From positions 1 to 36,552 of IMG/VR virus record IMGVR_UViG_3300042731_003976: a DNA stretch of 36,552 bases; one strand, written 5' to 3'. The DNA is from a virus. A program made the translations under genes and the position numbers. The notes under the pieces are model-generated. The model had not been told where the DNA came from. It was given only the letters and a program-made list of their open reading frames with translations, and searched no databases. Numbering within the stretch: position 1 is the first letter of the stretch; each line of letters starts with the position of its first letter. Shown one piece after another: positions 4,821-30,682 of this stretch.

Positions 4821-7741
4821 GGTATCGCCTCTGCCAATACGCGTCGGATCATAGCCTCGAATTGCGCCTCGTCCATTCCGCTGTTGATATTATTGCCGCC
4901 CAGTTGAAATGTGTTTTGCGTGCTGTTGCTGACGCCGGCCATCGTGGGCGGCGCAAAAACAGGCGCTTGCGTCATCGTTGTGGCAGACGAGCCGCCAAAG
5001 TTCAAGTCGGCCTGCGTCTGCTCAATGATCTGCTGCATCGCTGCTGTTGTGGCCTCTACGATCTCGGATGCGCTGGCGTCAGCCGTTAGCCCCCCCAACA
5101 CCTCTTGAGCATCGAGGCCGTGTTCTTGTACCAGTTTCATCAAATCAAGTTGCTGTTGCAAGAGCTGCATTTGCTGCTGCGCCTCTTGAAATTCTGCAAT
5201 CCGCGCCTCTTGTTCAGCGCGTTCGGCGGCCAACCTGGCGCGTTCCGCCTCAAGCTCGCCGATTTGCTGGAGCGCCTTTTGCTGGTCCTCGAGGTCGGCG
5301 GTAGGGTCTTCAAGCGCCCGCCGCCATTGCTCTAGCGACTCATCTACTGTTTTTAGCTCCTCGTCTAGCGGCTTCAGCTCATCCTCTAGCGTCTTCATGG
5401 CCGTCTGGCCCAGGCCAGAAAGCGCGTCAAAGAGTCGGCCTGGCAATTCCTCGGCAGCCTTTGCCGCCGCCTCCATTTCACGTTCTATATCACGCGCCAC
5501 TTTTTCGGCTAGCTTTTCGGCCTCTCGCTCAGCCTTTTCTCGCTCGCGCTCTGCATCGCGTTCGGCCTCTTTGCGCTGGCGTTCAGCCTCTTTTTCGACC
5601 TCTTTGGCCGCGCGCTCGGCTTCTTTTTCAGCTTCTTTGATAGCCTCGGCCTGCGCTTTTGTAGCTTCAATGGAACCAACTTGTGTATCAATGAGTGCAT
5701 CCAATTGCGCCCGGTAGTCTTCCATCGAAAGTGTACCGCTTGCAAGTCTGGCGTTTAGCGCGTCCATGCCCTCGGCCAGCGCGCGCCCTTCCTCACCAAC
5801 CAGGCCATAATCGTCTTGAACGCCGCGCACAAGCTCTTGATATTCTTCAAGCGACAGCGCGCCCTCGTCAAGCAATTGGTTCAGGCCATCTATCGCCGCG
5901 CTTGCGGCTCCGGCGGCGTCAACGTCGCTCAGGGCTTCAGCCTGTTCCAATAATGCAACCGTGTGCTCTTGCGCGGCCTGCGCGGCTTCCTCTTGCCGCT
6001 GGCGCGTTTCCTCAAGTTTTTGTTGATAAGCTTCCTGTTTTTCTCTGCTTTCCTCAAGCGCCCATACGAGCCGTTTTTGCGCCGCCTCTTCCTCATCGGT
6101 GACAATCACGCCGTCCTCTTTGGCTTTTATCAGCGTGAACATTTTGGCATCCACTGCGGACATGGCCTCGTCAACGGCCTTTAATTCCTCAGCGGTCATC
6201 TTGATGGCATCAATGTCGGCCTCGCGGGCGGCTTTCGCTTCAATTTCAGCCCAGGTCAACCCCTGCGTAGCCTGAATTGAATCCATGATGGCCTCTTGAT
6301 TTTCGCGTTCAGCGTTAGTCAAGTTTTCCCAATCTACTTTGGATTGCTGAATGCGCTTGTGCATTTCAAATGAGGCCTGGTCCACGGCGACGATAGACTG
6401 GCCCGTCTCTTTTAGCGCCTCATTGGCAAGCTCCACCTGGGTTATGTATTGACTATAGTTTTCTGTTCCTTCCTGTATTTCCCGATCAAGCGCAGAGACC
6501 GCAGCGCCCATCGTGGCGGCAAATTCCGCGTCAGTGCCCAACATATCCCCCAGGATGCCGCCAGTGACAATATTCTTGTTGTATTTCTCGGTTGCCTGCT
6601 CCATCTTGGCGGCGATAGAGTCTATTTCCGCGCCCCACGCCGTACTTCCTGCTGTCAGGTCTTTTAGCCCGTCGGCAACTCCCGCGCCGCTCTCCCGGGC
6701 GGCGTCTTGGGCCTTTTCCATTTTTTCAAATTGTGCATCTGCCCGTTCAAGCGCAGCTACCAAAATGGCAAGCTCTACACCTAGCGCGCCCAGGGCCTTG
6801 CCAGATGTGCCCAATTTTTCAATGAGCGGCCCCAGGCCCCCGCTGAATTTTGTAGCAATGCCAAACGCGCCAGTCATGGCTGTTACCAGCGCGATAGTTG
6901 AGCTTTCCATCTCTGCGATAGTCCCAGCGGCCACCCCTGCAGCCCCGGCCAGCTTTTGTCCAACCTCAATGCGTGTGTCCTCGATCTTGGCCCGCGCCTG
7001 CTCCATTTTGGCGGCGTTGTCCTCGACTCTATCGCCTAGCGTCGCCAGGCTACGCTCGCTGGCCTCGAACACGGCTTGGGCAAACGCCTGCTCTCGCGTC
7101 ATGTCAAAATTAGCCTCTTGCAACTCTATGATGCGCTCGCGCACATAGCCCGCGCTCAGGCCGTAGGCATCGAGACGGGGAATTGAGGTATTTGCAAGCA
7201 TTAGCGCAAAGTCACTAACCCTATCGCCCGCGCTTTGCGTCTGGTCTCCCAGTCGGGTGGCCGCCTCAACTACCTTTTCCATTTCGGCGGCGTTGCCGAC
7301 AATGCCCATCTGCAACAACTGTGAGGCCGATGTCATGGCCTCCATCTTGTTGACGGTCCCGCCCGCGCCGCGCTGGAACGCTTCAAGGTTTGCAGCCGCG
7401 CCCCCGGCCTGTTCAGCAAAAGCCTCAAAGCGCGCTTGCTGGCGGTCGAAATTAGCGCCCAGTTCTGCCAGCCCCAGCCCGGAGCGGATCAACTCCTCGG
7501 CTTGTGAATAGGCTTTTTCGACAAGCTCAACGCTGGCGGCCAACTCAACGTTGCTCTGGGCCGATTCCTCAATAGACGTATCAACCCCCTTGAGCGCCTG
7601 CGACATCTGCATAGCGCCAGATTTCGCCTCGCCGGTAGCCGCCTCCATAGCATCAAGCCCGGCCAGGTAGCGGTCTAGCCCGGCTTGAAATTGTTCATCC
7701 AGGAGTACGGCTTCTAGCCCTATTCGCTCGCCGTCCGTCAT
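4817..7741 (-). CDS. Tail tape measure protein
   Basis: A 974-residue, largely helical protein. Length, composition and position right after the tail assembly chaperone pair identify it as the tape measure protein, which sets tail length and fills the tube lumen. An Ala/Gly-rich N-terminal part is followed by a moderately hydrophobic stretch (around residues 310-340), then long heptad-like helices. Around residues 670-740 there is an almost pure Lys/Glu/Arg/Ala stretch (EKEAERAAKEVEKEAERQR and onward) that may form a single stable helix, followed by Gln-rich helices. I chose the ATG at 7741 because it forms an ATGA overlap with the upstream stop and follows GAGGAG; an in-frame upstream start at 7777 would overlap the chaperone gene by 40 bases. 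At the usual 1.5 Å per residue the tail would be roughly 145 nm, which is an inference. Confidence 0.92.
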   Translation of the reverse strand: MTDGERIGLEAVLLDEQFQAGLDRYLAGLDAMEAATGEAKSGAMQMSQALKGVDTSIEESAQSNVELAASVELVEKAYSQAEELIRSGLGLAELGANFDRQQARFEAFAEQAGGAAANLEAFQRGAGGTVNKMEAMTSASQLLQMGIVGNAAEMEKVVEAATRLGDQTQSAGDRVSDFALMLANTSIPRLDAYGLSAGYVRERIIELQEANFDMTREQAFAQAVFEASERSLATLGDRVEDNAAKMEQARAKIEDTRIEVGQKLAGAAGVAAGTIAEMESSTIALVTAMTGAFGIATKFSGGLGPLIEKLGTSGKALGALGVELAILVAALERADAQFEKMEKAQDAARESGAGVADGLKDLTAGSTAWGAEIDSIAAKMEQATEKYNKNIVTGGILGDMLGTDAEFAATMGAAVSALDREIQEGTENYSQYITQVELANEALKETGQSIVAVDQASFEMHKRIQQSKVDWENLTNAERENQEAIMDSIQATQGLTWAEIEAKAAREADIDAIKMTAEELKAVDEAMSAVDAKMFTLIKAKEDGVIVTDEEEAAQKRLVWALEESREKQEAYQQKLEETRQRQEEAAQAAQEHTVALLEQAEALSDVDAAGAASAAIDGLNQLLDEGALSLEEYQELVRGVQDDYGLVGEEGRALAEGMDALNARLASGTLSMEDYRAQLDALIDTQVGSIEATKAQAEAIKEAEKEAERAAKEVEKEAERQRKEAERDAEREREKAEREAEKLAEKVARDIEREMEAAAKAAEELPGRLFDALSGLGQTAMKTLEDELKPLDEELKTVDESLEQWRRALEDPTADLEDQQKALQQIGELEAERARLAAERAEQEARIAEFQEAQQQMQLLQQQLDLMKLVQEHGLDAQEVLGGLTADASASEIVEATTAAMQQIIEQTQADLNFGGSSATTMTQAPVFAPPTMAGVSNSTQNTFQLGGNNINSGMDEAQFEAMIRRVLAEAIP

Positions 7742-8979: not shown

Positions 8980-10482
8980 CTATCCGCTGACGCTAGCAAT
9001 AAATGAGGTTGCCGCGTTCACCTCGCCAACCAAAAATGCCTGGTTGGAGTGGCAGATATTTAGCCAATTCATGCCACTGTTAGTGACTGTATTTTCAGCC
9101 ACCCACGAGTCGCCGCCGTCAATGGATTTATACACGCGCCCCACCGGTGCAGCGGTGTTTTTGAGCAAAAAGCCCGTCAGGCCATCTGGCAAAAACGTCA
9201 CGCACTCAATGGTGTCCGTGGCCGCCGCACTCAAACCAGTGCTCTTGACTTCCCAGGTCGTCGTACCGTCAAATGACATGTACAGCGGGACTGCGGCTGC
9301 TACGCCGTTGTTGGTGCCGACAATCAGCCGGTTCTCGCTGAAAACGCAGACGGTGTTAAGCGTGTCGCCGCTGCCCGTGGCCGTCTGCGCCGTCCAGTTC
9401 ACGCCGCCGTCCACCGTGCCGATTATCACGTCAGTTGCACCCACGGCATAGCCCACATTTTCGTCACAGAAATGTATGGCGCTCAAAGACGTTGCGCCGC
9501 TGGCTGATAGCGCCGTCGTTTGTTCAGCCCAACTCGCGCCGCCGTCAAGGCTTTTGTAGACCCTGCCGCCATCTGTGCAAATGTAGCCAATGGTCGTGCC
9601 GGGCACAAAAAACATACTGCCGCCGCCGACTGTGGCCTCTGCGTTAGTTGAACCGACATCAACCTGCGTCCATGTAGCCGTCGCATCATCGCTGTACTCC
9701 ACCTGCAATGGCGTAGCCGCCAGCGTGCCGCGCACGTAGATGTATCGCTCGGTGTTGGTGTCAATTTGCAAAATCTTTCCGCTGTTAACGTTCGTGCCAG
9801 CTGCAAATCCCGATGCCGGACTGGTCCAAGTCGCGCCTGTATCAGTGCTCAAGAACACGTCAGGAATAGCCGCCGCGACGGTATCGGCGCTGGCCGTCAT
9901 CACCTCACATTTCCCACGCCTCGCGCCGCAAGCCCCGGCACAGCGTTGAGCGGCTGCCGTGATGTGGTTTAGCGCCGCCGTCTCGCTGGTGGCAATGCGC
10001 GCCACGGTAAGCGGTCTGTGGTCAATGCGCCCAATCCAGCCGGTCACAGCCCACGTGTGATCGAGCAGTGTTCCCGTTTCGCGCTGCACGGGATTGACAA
10101 CAACGTCGTCAGTCAAGCGCGCGCGGCGATACACCCATGCGCGCTCGCGGTTGCCAAACACCTGCTTGCTGTCACACTTGCTCACGACGACATACAGATT
10201 AAAGGGGCACCCGTCGTCTTTGACGCGCTCCAGGAAATTCGCCGCCGGGCCTTCGTAGGACGTGATATTAAACGCCGGTTGCGCGGCAGGCGACAATTCC
10301 TCTGCCACCTGTTTGTACTCCCTGGTTACGCTATCAACACAATGGCGCGGCGTTGGCGTTGGTTTAGGATTGGGCAGATTGTCTACCATGACGCACTCAC
10401 CCAACGGGAATACCTCTGTCCCATCTCCAAATTGGATGAATACCGCACCGTCTAGGCCATCATAAAGTGTCGGATCACTCAT
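8980..10482 (-). CDS. Tail tube-like protein fused to BNR/Ycf48-like beta-propeller (copy 2)
   Basis: A 500-residue protein in two parts. Residues 1-180 carry the domain shared with the next gene upstream (FIQFGDGTEVFPLGEC, then CPFNLYV, ERAWVYR and GRIDHRPLT), in the genomic place of the major tail protein. A Cys-rich linker follows (about 181-193). Residues 200-500 contain six Asp-box-type repeats: STDTGATW (212), YSDDATATW (263), KSLDGGASW (310), GTVDGGVNW (355), MSFDGTTTW (402) and KSIDGGDSW (452). They are interleaved with Ycf48-like GYAVG strands, which predicts a beta-propeller of six or seven blades. The start at 10482 follows GGAG with good spacing. The propeller probably projects from the tail surface and binds glycans or cells. 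No sialidase catalytic set (Arg triad, Tyr-Glu) is apparent, so a binding rather than enzymatic role is likelier. Confidence 0.8.
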   Translation of the reverse strand: MSDPTLYDGLDGAVFIQFGDGTEVFPLGECVMVDNLPNPKPTPTPRHCVDSVTREYKQVAEELSPAAQPAFNITSYEGPAANFLERVKDDGCPFNLYVVVSKCDSKQVFGNRERAWVYRRARLTDDVVVNPVQRETGTLLDHTWAVTGWIGRIDHRPLTVARIATSETAALNHITAAAQRCAGACGARRGKCEVMTASADTVAAAIPDVFLSTDTGATWTSPASGFAAGTNVNSGKILQIDTNTERYIYVRGTLAATPLQVEYSDDATATWTQVDVGSTNAEATVGGGSMFFVPGTTIGYICTDGGRVYKSLDGGASWAEQTTALSASGATSLSAIHFCDENVGYAVGATDVIIGTVDGGVNWTAQTATGSGDTLNTVCVFSENRLIVGTNNGVAAAVPLYMSFDGTTTWEVKSTGLSAAATDTIECVTFLPDGLTGFLLKNTAAPVGRVYKSIDGGDSWVAENTVTNSGMNWLNICHSNQAFLVGEVNAATSFIASVSG

Positions 10483-10503: not shown

Positions 10504-11982
10504 TTATCCGCTAATTTTTGCTATAAAACTTGTGCCGCCCTGGGCGTCGCCCACTACAACCCCCAAGTTGGGCTGGCAAACCGCTAATGCTTTTAAGAAG
10601 TTACTCGTAGGCGTTTCAATCAAGCGCCAGTTATAGCCACCGTTTATGCTCTTGTAAATGTTGCCTGCGCTGGCAACCACACTTTTGATAGCATATCCCG
10701 TCAGGCCATCTGGCAAAAACCGGACATCGTAGCCCACCGTCACGCCTGTGACAACGGCCCAGCGCGTGACATCAGTCCAGGTAGTAGCGGCATCGTAGCT
10801 CATGAACAAATTGCCGCCTGAACCAGCGATAGAATAGTTGCCCATTATGAGACGTTGACGGTCAAAGACATGCAAGGCCAGCCAATCCTCGCCGAGGCCG
10901 CTGGGATTATCGGTCCAGGTCTTGCCGCCATCTGTAGTAGACAAAATGGTATCGTTGTCGCCTACGGCGTATCCCACCAGCGCGTCAGCAAAATGAATGG
11001 CAATTAGCTGGTCGCCGCCGCTGGCCGTCGCCGCGCTATCCTGTTCGGTCCAGTCTACGCCATTGTAAAAATAGACTCTGCCGTCATTGCTACACATCCA
11101 GCCATGACGGCGGTCAAGGAAAAATAATGATGTGTCCTTAGGAGTTCCATCGCCGGGCGTTTCACCCACTACAGTATCCACCCACGAGCCGCCCCAAAGC
11201 GCGGTTTCAACTTGCGCCGCCAGGCCAGTTACACTCTCTCGCGCCAGAAATACTCTGCGCCCGTCTGGAGTTGGGACGCACGAAACGGCGGTTATGCCGC
11301 TGCCGGCCTGAAATCCAGATGCGGAAATGGTGATATTGTCACCGCCGTCAGTTGTGCTATAAACATCCGGCGCTGCGCCGCCTACCGTGTCAGCGCCCAT
11401 GGCGAACTGCTCACAGGCCCCTAGCGCCTCGCTGCAATCTGTAGCACAGTTGGGCGCGCAAATTCCCAGGCCGTTCAGGTCTGCCGTGCCAATTGTGGAG
11501 ATGCGCGTTATCGTCACCGGTCTATGATCCACGCGCCCGTTGCGCGCCGTGACGTTGAACGAGTGCATTGTCAGCGTGTCGGCTTCAGTCTCCACAGCAT
11601 TCTCTATGGGATCGTCTGTAAATGTGCAATCACGATAGGCCCACGCACGCTCATAATTGTCGAAAGATCGAGCCGTCCCCTTGCGCGCCTGCAACACGTA
11701 CAGATTGAACGGGCAATTTGCCTCTTTGGCCCGCTCCAAATAATGCGCCGCTTCTCTGACGTACACGGTGATGGTCAGATTGGTTGCAGCCGGGGGGCCT
11801 GGCTCAAACCCAATCTGGTTGTAATCGCGTGCGCCAATGGAACTATACACGGGACGTCTGTCAGGCGAGGGGCTGGGCAGCGTCGGCAGAACAGTACAGT
11901 CTCCCAGGTAAAATATCTCTGTCCCGTCGCCAAACTGGACATAGACAAAAGTATCGAGAGAGTGAATCAACTTTTCGTCCAC
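10504..11982 (-). CDS. Tail tube-like protein fused to BNR/Ycf48-like beta-propeller (copy 1)
   Basis: A 492-residue paralogue of the next gene downstream, sharing its whole architecture. The N-terminal tube-like domain has VYVQFGDGTEIFYLGDC, CPFNLYVL, ERAWAYR and GRVDHRPVTITRI. A Cys cluster follows (CAPNCATDCSEALGAC), then a propeller with better or worse preserved Asp boxes: STTDGGDNI (209), a short WGGSW (263), FYNGVDW (305), STTDGGKTW (348), MSYDAATTW (394) and KSINGGYNW (444). It begins at a GTG preceded by AGAGGT. The two copies are diverged along their length but collinear, so this is an old tandem duplication. Whether both proteins build the tube, or one is the tube and the other a decorating subunit, cannot be decided from sequence. 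Confidence 0.8.
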   Translation of the reverse strand: MDEKLIHSLDTFVYVQFGDGTEIFYLGDCTVLPTLPSPSPDRRPVYSSIGARDYNQIGFEPGPPAATNLTITVYVREAAHYLERAKEANCPFNLYVLQARKGTARSFDNYERAWAYRDCTFTDDPIENAVETEADTLTMHSFNVTARNGRVDHRPVTITRISTIGTADLNGLGICAPNCATDCSEALGACEQFAMGADTVGGAAPDVYSTTDGGDNITISASGFQAGSGITAVSCVPTPDGRRVFLARESVTGLAAQVETALWGGSWVDTVVGETPGDGTPKDTSLFFLDRRHGWMCSNDGRVYFYNGVDWTEQDSAATASGGDQLIAIHFADALVGYAVGDNDTILSTTDGGKTWTDNPSGLGEDWLALHVFDRQRLIMGNYSIAGSGGNLFMSYDAATTWTDVTRWAVVTGVTVGYDVRFLPDGLTGYAIKSVVASAGNIYKSINGGYNWRLIETPTSNFLKALAVCQPNLGVVVGDAQGGTSFIAKISG

Positions 11983-19101: not shown

Positions 19102-19655
19102 TAGTCATGCTCCCAGTAGACAACGCTGATCGTGATTGTGGCCTGGTTCGCCAGCCCGTCGCTGGACGCCAGCCGCGCGCGAATCTGAGAATTGGCCGCT
19201 ACTTCCTCAGAACCTAGTATGTACACCTGATTCCCAAAAAAGCCCCCCGCTACGGCAAAGCGCACCGCCGTGATAATATCATCAGCGGCGCCTTTGTATA
19301 GCTCTAGCTGAAAGACGGCGTTCTTGTCGCAGGACTCTATTGATACAGCGGTAATGTGAAAGTCAGCGGCGATAGTGTTGATGGGCACGACGGTAGCATA
19401 CGCGCCATAAGCCCAGTCAGCGTTAGCCGACACGACTGTTGCGCCAGCCGCCAGCGTGGGGTATACTTTTCTCTCAAGCTGAAACGCATCGTACAACTCA
19501 TCAACGCGAGAGTACAGGCTGTTCCCGTTGTGCGTGTCTTGCTTGCCGCCAATAACATCGCCCCAGTCTTCATTGTCGGCGCTGTCTACCGCCGGTACGT
19601 CAAAAAAGCCCTCTTGTACCTGCGCTTGCTGCGTCAAGGATACTCCGTCTGTCAT
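19101..19655 (-). CDS. Small head-region structural protein, unknown function
   Basis: A 184-residue protein with an N-terminal helix-turn segment (THNGNSLYSRVDELYDAF) followed by a beta-sandwich-like body (FHITAVSIESCDKNAVFQLE and an alternating Val/Ile-rich end, TITISVVYWEHD). It recalls a kind of phage protein found in environmental genomes next to capsid genes, for which I know no function. It is coupled on both sides by overlaps, so it is co-translated with the protease/scaffold gene. A head fibre or decoration role is plausible and unproven. Confidence 0.65.
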   Translation of the reverse strand: MTDGVSLTQQAQVQEGFFDVPAVDSADNEDWGDVIGGKQDTHNGNSLYSRVDELYDAFQLERKVYPTLAAGATVVSANADWAYGAYATVVPINTIAADFHITAVSIESCDKNAVFQLELYKGAADDIITAVRFAVAGGFFGNQVYILGSEEVAANSQIRARLASSDGLANQATITISVVYWEHD

Positions 19656-20119
19656 GAAAACACCGCCTCGATTTGCAGCGTGCCAGGATTGCCCACTGCA
19701 CCGCTCTCCCTGGCCCTGACTCGAATCCGCTCAATCGTGCCCCGAAGTTCGATGGGGCCAAAGCTGAAATCCTCAGCCGGCGCGCCTTGGCTGGTGTAGC
19801 TCTGTAGCTCGCGCTGCACCAGGCTGGTAGTATCAACGCCAGCCGCCACGGCTCCGGCTGCGTAAATGCTCTCTGTCACCCACTCGCTAGCGCCGACAGG
19901 CGCGTTGGCTGCTATGCTGTATGGGCTTGTCTCAATTTGAAAATCAAATGCGCCTGCTTGTGCGCCTTGCGTGTAGGTGAAAGATAAAGTGAGGTGGTCA
20001 AAATAAGGACAGGCCATCTCTGTCGGCGCAGGGTCCCACGCGCCAGCCGCCGGTAGGGCTGCGTTGGCCCGCGCCTCTTGCACGTTCAGATAAATTGCCG
20101 ATATTGGGACCGTTGTCAT
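19652..20119 (-). CDS. First structural-operon gene, beta-rich head-region protein
   Basis: A 155-residue beta-rich protein. I chose ATG 20119 because GGAG sits six bases upstream; a GTG 12 bases earlier would lie within that ribosome-binding site. Features include FDHLTLSFTYTQGAQAGAFD, IYAAGAVAAGVDTT and an ERIRVRARESGAVG strand near the end, typical of small phage head proteins of unknown role that come in pairs with the next gene. It is the first gene after the promoter, structured RNA and terminator at 20134-20395, so its expression must depend on passage through that terminator. Confidence 0.65.
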   Translation of the reverse strand: MTTVPISAIYLNVQEARANAALPAAGAWDPAPTEMACPYFDHLTLSFTYTQGAQAGAFDFQIETSPYSIAANAPVGASEWVTESIYAAGAVAAGVDTTSLVQRELQSYTSQGAPAEDFSFGPIELRGTIERIRVRARESGAVGNPGTLQIEAVFS

Positions 20120-20133
20120 AATAGTCTCCACAA

Positions 20134-20176
20134 ATAAAAAAAGCGCCAGTGTCCGCTTTAACGGACGACTGGCGCT
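20134..20176 (-). terminator. Intrinsic terminator/attenuator ahead of the capsid operon
   Basis: On the minus strand AGCGCCAGT and GTCCG arms pair with CGGAC and ACTGGCGCT (142-150 with 168-176; 151-155 with 162-166; one bulged base; six-base loop), followed at once by seven Ts. The 5' arm is duplicated just upstream (AGCGCCAG at 177-184), allowing an alternative, shifted pairing. The U-tract ends only a few bases before the GGAG of the first capsid-operon gene at 20119, so the element either ends a short RNA or acts as an attenuator. Confidence 0.85.
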
Positions 20177-20204
20177 CTGGCGCTCGTTGTTATTTTATTG
20201 ATTG

Positions 20205-20354
20205 GGCGCGGTGTGCTATTACGCTAAAGGGATTTACCTGCCTTTATCCGGCGATATTAATGCCGGTCCCTTTCTGGTGTAGGTTCGGTCTGTTTCCAGT
20301 GACCGTTGTCCCACTCATTATAAGATGGCTGCCTCTAGGCCCACCTTCCACGCC
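20205..20354 (-). ncRNA. Candidate structured RNA of unknown family
   Basis: The minus-strand transcript of this non-coding stretch folds by hand into a compact branched structure. GGCGUGG (20348-20354) pairs with CCGCGCC (20205-20211), closing the domain with 7 bp including one G-U. Inside, AAAGGGA (20267-20273) pairs with UCCCUUU (20226-20232) and encloses a CCGGC/GCCGG hairpin (20248-20266). GGUG (20342-20345) pairs with CACC (20276-20279) and encloses a hairpin with a GAAA tetraloop (20286-20305). GCCU (20337-20340) could form a pseudoknot with AGGC (20240-20243). A promoter lies just upstream and a terminator downstream. I matched it to no riboswitch, ribozyme or phage RNA family that I know. 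Confidence 0.6.
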
Positions 20355-20365
20355 TAATTAGAGTT

Positions 20366-20395
20366 ATTGTATCACATTTCAGACTGACTTGTCAA
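20366..20395 (-). promoter_or_regulatory. Sigma70-type promoter driving the structured RNA and capsid operon
   Basis: TTGACA at 20395-20390 is a perfect -35 box and TACAAT at 20371-20366 is one base from the -10 consensus, spaced 18 bp, with a TGA extension in front of the -10. Expected start near 20359, five bases before the closing stem of the structured RNA. The -35 box lies two bases downstream of a perfect 15-bp palindrome (20398-20412), a suitable place for a regulator. Confidence 0.75.
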
Positions 20396-20787
20396 CTGTT
20401 ACGCCGCGTAACATCCCGCGCCACCTCATTGAGCAAATCGCCAAAGTCAACCCCTGACCACGATTCACTCTCGGCGGAAACATCAATCTTTTGACCGTAT
20501 TTGGCAAGGGATAATTCCATAGAAACTCTCTCTGGGGCATCTCCGCCATCAGGATCACTGCTTTGCTCCCTGAACTCAATCACAAGGTTGTAGTAGCGCG
20601 CCTTGATTTTATCTCTCATCAATTCGTGGAAATTGCTCAGGGGTGTATCTTGCCCGATCAAATCAAGTTGCTCGATTTTCCTTAATTTATACTGGCCCGC
20701 TAGTTCCCATAATCGCTCTGGTGTAAATGTAAAAGAAACAGGCCCGCGTTTCAATGTAACTTCTTTTTCAGTCTGCGTTATTTCCAT
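20392..20787 (-). CDS. Unrecognised accessory protein ending in VTRRNS
   Basis: A 131-residue soluble protein with a mixed charged sequence (MEITQTEKEVTLKRG, then IEQLDLIGQDTPLSNFHELM). A strong GGAGAGGGG ribosome-binding site precedes the ATG. The gene ends over a 15-bp palindrome that encodes the terminal VTRRN, as does the next gene upstream. Its last bases also form part of the -35 region of the capsid-operon promoter. No family recognised. It is the last gene of the accessory block before the structural operon. Confidence 0.6.
   Translation of the reverse strand: MEITQTEKEVTLKRGPVSFTFTPERLWELAGQYKLRKIEQLDLIGQDTPLSNFHELMRDKIKARYYNLVIEFREQSSDPDGGDAPERVSMELSLAKYGQKIDVSAESESWSGVDFGDLLNEVARDVTRRNS
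20398..20412. repeat. 15-bp perfect palindrome, copy A
   Basis: GTTACGCCGCGTAAC: six-base arms around CCG. An identical copy lies at 20806-20820. This copy is just upstream of the -35 box of the capsid-operon promoter, centred near -46 relative to the predicted start, so an operator or activator site is possible. Each copy also lies at the 3' end of a gene and encodes VTRRN. Confidence 0.7.
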
Positions 20788-30135: not shown

Positions 30136-30682
30136 TGCCATCAAAGATAATTGATATGCGCTCCCCGCCGCTTGTGATATCCGTCTCTGTCTTAGGCAAC
30201 GGCTCCCGCGTCGTGATCCGCGCCAGATCATCGGCGGCCTTGAGAATCGCCGCCACATCTTTGGCCCAGGCTGGCGATAATGGCTCGATGATATAAGTTT
30301 TCCCATCGTCGCCCGCGGTCGTGCGCTTGCTAACCGGAAAGCTCAAATAGCCGCGCGCCTTTTCGCGTAGCTTGCGTGCATCCTCAAAGCGCCCGGCGCG
30401 CCACTCGTCGCAGTCCTCGCGGAATTGCTCCTCTATGCGTTGCCGCTCGTGTTCATCCCAGGCCTCGGCGCGGGGTTGCCAGTCCCACTCATCGAACGCC
30501 TTGCGCCACGAGCCGGGCGTGTAATTTGACTCTTTTTGTCCGTTTTGGACTCGCCAGACGTTGACAACGGTCAAAAGCTTGCGCCCTGGTCCAGCCTTGC
30601 GCCATAGCCCAAATCTATCGAACCATAACATCGGTTCAAGTTTACCGTCTTTGCGTTGGCGGTCCCAGGGTTGGTTACTCAT
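30113..30682 (-). CDS. terS: Terminase small subunit
   Basis: A 189-residue, Trp- and Arg-rich protein just before the large terminase, which it overlaps by 23 bases. The N-terminal part holds EPMLWFDRFGLW and ESNYTPGSWRKAFDEWDWQP followed by RAEAWDEHER, the helix-turn-helix pattern of small terminases that recognise the packaging site; a basic central and C-terminal region follows. An 8-base overlap (ATGAGTAA) links it to the glycosyltransferase gene. The packaging site (cos or pac) itself was not identified. Confidence 0.75.
   Translation of the reverse strand: MSNQPWDRQRKDGKLEPMLWFDRFGLWRKAGPGRKLLTVVNVWRVQNGQKESNYTPGSWRKAFDEWDWQPRAEAWDEHERQRIEEQFREDCDEWRAGRFEDARKLREKARGYLSFPVSKRTTAGDDGKTYIIEPLSPAWAKDVAAILKAADDLARITTREPLPKTETDITSGGERISIIFDGNVEQDDI

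Follow-up and report, generated by a model that had tools for sequence, protein, structure and literature searches.

The window, by which we mean the whole 36,552-nt stretch of viral DNA analyzed here (IMG/VR record IMGVR_UViG_3300042731_003976, positions 1 to 36,552), carries on its minus strand a 272-nt gap at bases 20120 to 20391, between the stop of the open reading frame (ORF) at 20392 to 20787 and an ATG at 20119. The gene downstream (19652 to 20131) gave no match in Pfam or PHROG and no convincing one in the PDB, and the capsid genes come after it. A sigma-70-type promoter lies at 20395 to 20366, with TTGACA at 20395 to 20390, an 18-nt spacer, and TACAAT at 20371 to 20366; it agrees with the consensus at 11 of 12 positions, has an extended −10 element (TG before TACAAT), and overlaps the stop codon of the upstream ORF with its −35 element. 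An intrinsic terminator is found at 20178 to 20136, where a long G+C-rich stem (approximately 20178 to 20141) is followed by seven T residues, and the predicted transcript of about 220 nt would extend from just after the −10 element to the terminator T run (20359 to 20136). Folding of 20360 to 20134 gives z = −5.4, with none of 200 shuffled sequences being equally stable. The original prediction of a discrete minus-strand unit within this gap, consisting of a TTGACA/TACAAT promoter, about 150 nt of structured RNA, and a strong terminator, was thus borne out in all three parts.

Elsewhere in the window, two adjacent ORFs of about 500 amino acids (8980 to 10482 and 10504 to 11982) resemble paralogues, with similar starts and a beta-repeat texture. 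The gene at 30675 to 31523 matches TET-associated glycosyltransferases (Pfam TAGT, E = 2e-44), which suggests that the phage DNA is hypermodified.

Correspondence with the GTPase-associated center of 23S rRNA

The RNA had earlier been matched to no riboswitch, ribozyme, or phage RNA, and a covariance search against Rfam had been proposed as a check. At the gathering score, no Rfam family matches the window, riboswitches, ribozymes, and phage RNAs included, and to this extent the earlier statement holds. A permissive search, on the other hand, returned large-subunit (LSU) rRNA at the positions of the GTPase-associated center (GAC), in the 5′ third of the stretch (16 bits, E = 0.0085), and this match was the key to the identity of the RNA. 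The window RNA is the 23S rRNA GAC (helices 42 to 44, approximately Escherichia coli positions 1048 to 1111) with an 87-nt insert in helix 44 (H44). The GAC is the ribosomal binding site of protein L11 and of the translation GTPases. Compared with E. coli 23S rRNA (rrlA, positions 1051 to 1108; E. coli numbering is used throughout), the folding core of the phage RNA is a near base-for-base copy of the bacterial GAC, and we are almost certain that the window RNA is a mimic of it.

Set against 23S rRNA, the order in the window is H43 and its loop (GGUGGGCCUAGAGGCAGCCAUC), then AUAAUGAGU, the 87-nt insert, the H44 loop GCGUAAUAGC, and ACACC, the whole RNA being closed by a helix that takes the position of H42. 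This closing helix is the GGCGUGG/CCGCGCC stem of the original prediction, which was drawn correctly; its 5′ strand lies at 20354 to 20348 (equivalent to 1049 to 1055) and its 3′ strand at 20211 to 20205, and the H42 pairs covary in the family described below. H43 and the 1082-1086 element occupy 20347 to 20317 and are assigned by identity with 23S rRNA, the equivalents of U1060, A1067, C1072, and A1088 being 20343, 20336, 20331, and 20315 and the 1082-1086 pair being A20321-U20317. The contiguous H44 stem of 23S rRNA (1087 to 1102) is interrupted in the window. GAGU (20316 to 20313) corresponds to 1087 to 1090, after which the insert follows, and the H44 hairpin, likewise assigned by identity, resumes at 20225 to 20214, with GCGUAAUAGC (20224 to 20215; equivalents 1091 to 1100) flanked by A20225 and A20214. 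The pair between G1087 and C1102 (20213) is kept, and this pair as well as the H44 pairs 1091-1100 and 1092-1099 are invariant in our alignment A1. The RNA is not embedded in an LSU rRNA gene, as no LSU match at the gathering score was found in the window.

A family of phage-encoded GAC RNAs

Searches with blastn against cultured phages gave matches of 39 to 45 nt in intergenic DNA of Pseudomonas, Aeromonas, Serratia, Erwinia, and Xanthomonas phages. A 16-base pattern found at least 119 stretches in viral contigs, and in most of them the H44 half follows at a distance of 50 to 400 nt. A second pattern search, directed at the 3′ half and placing no requirement on H43, gave 83 sites across viral and genome contigs; on the same strand, the H43 block precedes 69 of these. 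After removal of near duplicates, the GAC RNA is present at no fewer than 124 places, nearly all in virus contigs. Covariance model R1, trained on 27 other phage RNAs with the window excluded, matches the window over exactly 20356 to 20206 (89.1 bits, E = 8e-19 over 198 kb). It gives 84 matches in 94 pattern loci and recovers the cultured phages Astolliot, pf16, UNO-G1W1, XacN1, GAP32, CBB, BF, XbC2, and 4_4572. About 12 loci of the 16-base pattern list were chance matches in coding DNA and were dropped by R1. The exact pattern of the window type, GGCCTAGAGGCAGCCATCT, is absent from the viral contigs, indicating that the window carries its own variant without a close copy there.

In eight of the nine cultured-phage records whose neighborhood was inspected, the GAC RNA stretch is unannotated, and unannotated gaps of pf16, GAP32, CBB, XacN1, and Serratia phage BF contain the RNA; in Milchi, the only annotation to touch the stretch is a short hypothetical ORF on the opposite strand. 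One 174-kb phage contig (L064) has two different GAC RNAs in tandem, at 5124 to 5359 and 5441 to 5705.

Matches in plasmids and in some records labeled as phage were true 23S rRNA genes and were left out of the counts. The record of Paenibacillus phage Pd_22F (L233) is partly host DNA, since it includes a 23S rRNA gene of bacterial origin, and several short "phage" records are pieces of rRNA. Across the member loci, Rfam matches above the gathering score are confined to tRNAs and the true 23S gene of Pd_22F, and neither the window nor 15 member loci give an LSU rRNA match at that level.

Covariation and conservation

We ranked all column pairs, without guidance from a structure, in 75 cores less than 80% identical to each other. 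Ranks 1 to 15 belong to H42, to the lowest part of H43, to the 1082-1086 pair, and to a helix that closes the insert (here P-ins). Under a tree-aware null, in which the same substitutions are redistributed on a FastTree tree, ten pairs have an expected false count of 0.00 and fifteen have one of at most 0.11, the next pair standing at 1.2. Within H42, positions 1049 to 1053 covary with 1106 to 1110 (E = 0.00), and 1054 and 1055 reach E = 0.03 to 0.1; the 1082-1086 pair covaries at E = 0.00. In a control on the MAFFT alignment, 95% of cells were paired and the covariation score was 0.68, versus 0.16 for shuffled and 0.09 to 0.19 for slid alignments. The original prediction was to be given up if related phages had no homologous gaps, if the proposed helices had no covarying pairs, or if the RNA matched a known Rfam family. 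Homologues at so many places and the covariation of the H42 closing stem dispose of the first two, although one internal helix is contradicted by the same analysis (see below).

The 1082-1086 pair, a tertiary contact of the GAC known from L11-RNA crystal structures, is U1082-A1086 in 71 of 71 host 23S loci from three phyla. Among the 75 phage RNAs it is U-A in 32, C-G in 25, and A-U in 8. A pair that is fixed in the hosts and varied in the phages indicates that the fold is under selection and that the phage RNAs are not recent host copies; the compensatory nature of the change points to a long history of their own during which the fold was kept. This bears on whether the RNAs could be dead pieces of host 23S rRNA captured by recombination. 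The identity of H43 and H44 with 23S rRNA would suit such an origin, as would the R1 score of 51.7 bits for E. coli 23S rRNA, which the model matches at the GAC only. But H42 has been rewritten by compensatory changes, the 1082-1086 pair covaries unlike that of the hosts, the members have A at position 1101 (without exception; U in 23S rRNA) and a split H44, and rRNA flanks are absent. The covariation refutes the dead-fragment reading, to which we give almost no credence.

Conservation is uneven across the core. Positions 1059, 1060, 1063, and 1072 show 100% conservation across 65 RNAs whose selection took no account of H43, and the A1088 equivalent is present in 92% of the family. Residue 1067, which lies at the exposed tip and is contacted by thiostrepton and by the methylase that confers resistance to it, is A in 74% and G in 23% of members, residue 1068 is A in 26%, and residue 1095 is sometimes C or G, the last being an anecdotal observation from a search for H42 complementarity with many chance pairings. 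The members with G at the 1067 equivalent include L157, L165, L187, and L189; eukaryotic ribosomes also have G at this position. The sequence of H42 is unconstrained across the family. An invariant core fold with a relaxed 1067 tip fits L11 binding, or folding as such, rather than factor contact.

The same residues bear on whether the mimic engages some other ligand, such as the tRNA elbow, a translation GTPase, the L10-L12 stalk, a host toxin, or an RNA-modifying enzyme that recognizes the GAC. The L11 stalk of the ribosome makes contact with the tRNA elbow (PMC4974054), the GAC RNA sits in tRNA clusters, and the contact-surface loops around 1067 and 1095 are present in most members. Against this, the variation at 1067, 1068, and 1095 shows the contact tip to be less constrained than the fold, and the freedom of H42 argues against a sequence-specific contact there. 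We consider such a ligand fairly unlikely.

The insert in helix 44

The 87-nt insert lies between the equivalents of 1090 and 1091 (20312 to 20226) and is closed by P-ins, in which GGGA (20312 to 20309) pairs with UCCC (20232 to 20229), UUU following; inner hairpins are predicted, their structure being uncertain. In the ranking of all column pairs, those of P-ins stand at 1, 2, 9, and 13 (E = 0.00, 0.00, 0.00, and 0.10). The AAAGGGA/UCCCUUU helix proposed earlier is therefore doubtful, since the strongest covariation of the family assigns UCCC to GGGA at 20312 to 20309. That helix is nevertheless the favorite of the energy model (pair probability 0.49 to 0.57; 6.7 kcal/mol better than the alternative), whereas the R1 alignment of the window uses the family pairing. 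The two could be alternative states of the window RNA.

Insert length ranges from 35 to 349 nt across the family, and no common core was found beyond P-ins. About 20 members form a subfamily with CACCCCGGAAACGGUAAGGC, and jumbo-phage members (L005, L006, L016, L023, L055, and L234) have GACCCUUAGAG just before P-ins; the two groups look like separate insert types. In a subfamily alignment of inserts, that of the window joined no subfamily. One could suppose that the insert is the functional part, a fast-evolving RNA or binding domain for which the GAC is only a stable platform or nuclease-resistant end, and the recognizable subfamilies would accord with this. The spread in length and the lack of a shared core speak against it, as does a phage GAC with practically no insert (L019, 3709 to 3773), which lies directly upstream of an apparent tRNA gene, and we regard this possibility as very unlikely.

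Genomic context

Among the matches listed, the DNA examined contains a tRNA gene at 86 of the 124 places, and at 66 of the 124 the GAC RNA lies within 500 bp of one, always on the same strand (66/66). A tRNA gene is found within 300 bp in 55% of cases, compared to 24% for random placement in the same loci. The window phage differs from most members in that its record has no tRNA genes. It is also unusual in its signals, with a promoter found for 8 of 72 other members and a terminator for 3 of 72. Other neighbors include a 2′-5′ RNA ligase gene in XacN1 (L228) and an HNH nuclease gene in Vibrio phage 2.275.O (L234).

The relatives of the window phage by capsid protein, 17 in number, lack the GAC RNA by motif or R1, and it is absent altogether from four whole relative records. 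In five of six relatives examined (major capsid protein 57 to 76% identical, the sixth being weaker), the homologue of gene 19652-20131 is immediately preceded by a promoter, a leader, and a terminator. In 308 kb of relatives, both strands counted, TTGACA-N17-TATACT has five occurrences, all of them in this same gap. The leaders of the five (L128, L135, L136, L140, and L143) are completely different and unrelated in sequence; that of L140 is long enough for another structured RNA. We read this as a clade slot made up of a late-gene promoter and a terminated leader, into which the window phage has put a GAC RNA. That the window GAC RNA has a promoter and a terminator is thus explained by the slot, which carries both.

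The original prediction left open whether the RNA is a free phage noncoding RNA or a cis leader controlling capsid gene expression. As a leader in the window phage, it would control read-through of the terminator at 20178 to 20136 and hence the structural operon, perhaps sensing L11 or ribosome supply, by analogy with the lambda 6S RNA leader and terminator or a put-type antiterminator. We keep this option for the window phage because the same gap serves its relatives as a promoter-leader-terminator slot. Yet kin without a GAC RNA in the slot show that it is dispensable for operon control there, and most members are located elsewhere, often in tRNA clusters, with a terminator rarely following. 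The cis leader is accordingly the less favored option, and we judge it distinctly unlikely; the free RNA is the better of the two.

Comparison with known systems

H43 and H44 of the phage RNAs agree with those of the 23S GAC in sequence and secondary structure, and the 1082-1086 pair and the equivalents of U1060, C1072, and A1088 are shared as well; the phage RNAs differ from the 23S GAC in being free and phage-encoded, in the split H44, in the A at 1101, and in the unconstrained H42. The leaders of ribosomal protein genes (L1, L10(L12)4, and L20) are cis elements before cellular genes that mimic rRNA. Mimicry of rRNA to bind a ribosomal protein, as predicted for the phage RNA, would be a common trait, but the Rfam leader families are unmatched and no ribosomal protein gene lies next to the GAC RNA of the window. 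In lambda, the 6S RNA leader comprises promoter pR′, terminator tR′, and a short terminated transcript with structural genes downstream. The window's clade alone shows a similar arrangement, also conserved in kin, whereas the lambda leader does not mimic rRNA. Stable RNAs C and D of T4 are likewise phage RNAs of obscure function beside tRNA genes, but the T4 rnaC/rnaD locus has no motif by eye and no R1 match. GOLLD and ROOL are phage-associated structured RNAs, GOLLD being found with tRNAs (PMC12286853); these are much larger, their Rfam models are unmatched by the phage GAC RNA, and among the matches listed no member has a tRNA inside its insert.

Proposed function and implications

We propose that the phages make a free-standing noncoding RNA consisting of H42, H43, and H44 of the GAC, in which the tertiary fold is preserved and H44 holds a variable insert. 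Transcribed from its own promoter up to the terminator, the RNA would bind host uL11 in trans by molecular mimicry, so that uL11 may be withdrawn or redirected during infection. The rRNA site of uL11 is the GAC domain, and L11 is needed for RelA activation. The phage might plausibly gain from a weakening of L11-dependent signaling, RelA activation being one example, or from a change in how the translation GTPases work. The 58-nt GAC folds autonomously and is bound by L11 (PMC4409310), and the invariant fold with its relaxed tip would fit L11 better than factor or tRNA contact, which is an argument from conservation. The insert adjoins L11-contacting nucleotides and might disturb the binding of L11. 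As ribosomes far outnumber a single small RNA, titration would require strong expression or would act only on free L11.

On the sequence evidence, we put trans mimicry of the GAC binding uL11 at about an even chance as the explanation, and we are equally divided on uL11 as the main ligand. The broader reading, in which phages of many lineages imitate the GAC in trans to capture uL11 or another GAC-recognizing factor and thereby disarm a host response (RelA-dependent (p)ppGpp) or retune phage translation, is possible and is offered tentatively. RelA itself is unlikely to be the target of selection.

Neither Rfam nor a literature search, whose coverage is incomplete so that a prior description is possible, yielded a phage-encoded GAC RNA. 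Filters that discard rRNA-like matches hide real phage RNAs. With a ready hypothesis (uL11), a known test system (58-nt GAC RNA, thiostrepton, and rplK mutants), and cultured phages carrying the RNA, the question is testable at once. Known rRNA mimicry is that of ribosomal protein leaders, in cis and in cells, whereas the phage GAC RNA would act in trans; if this is true, ribosome mimicry in trans would join the tools by which phages take over their hosts.
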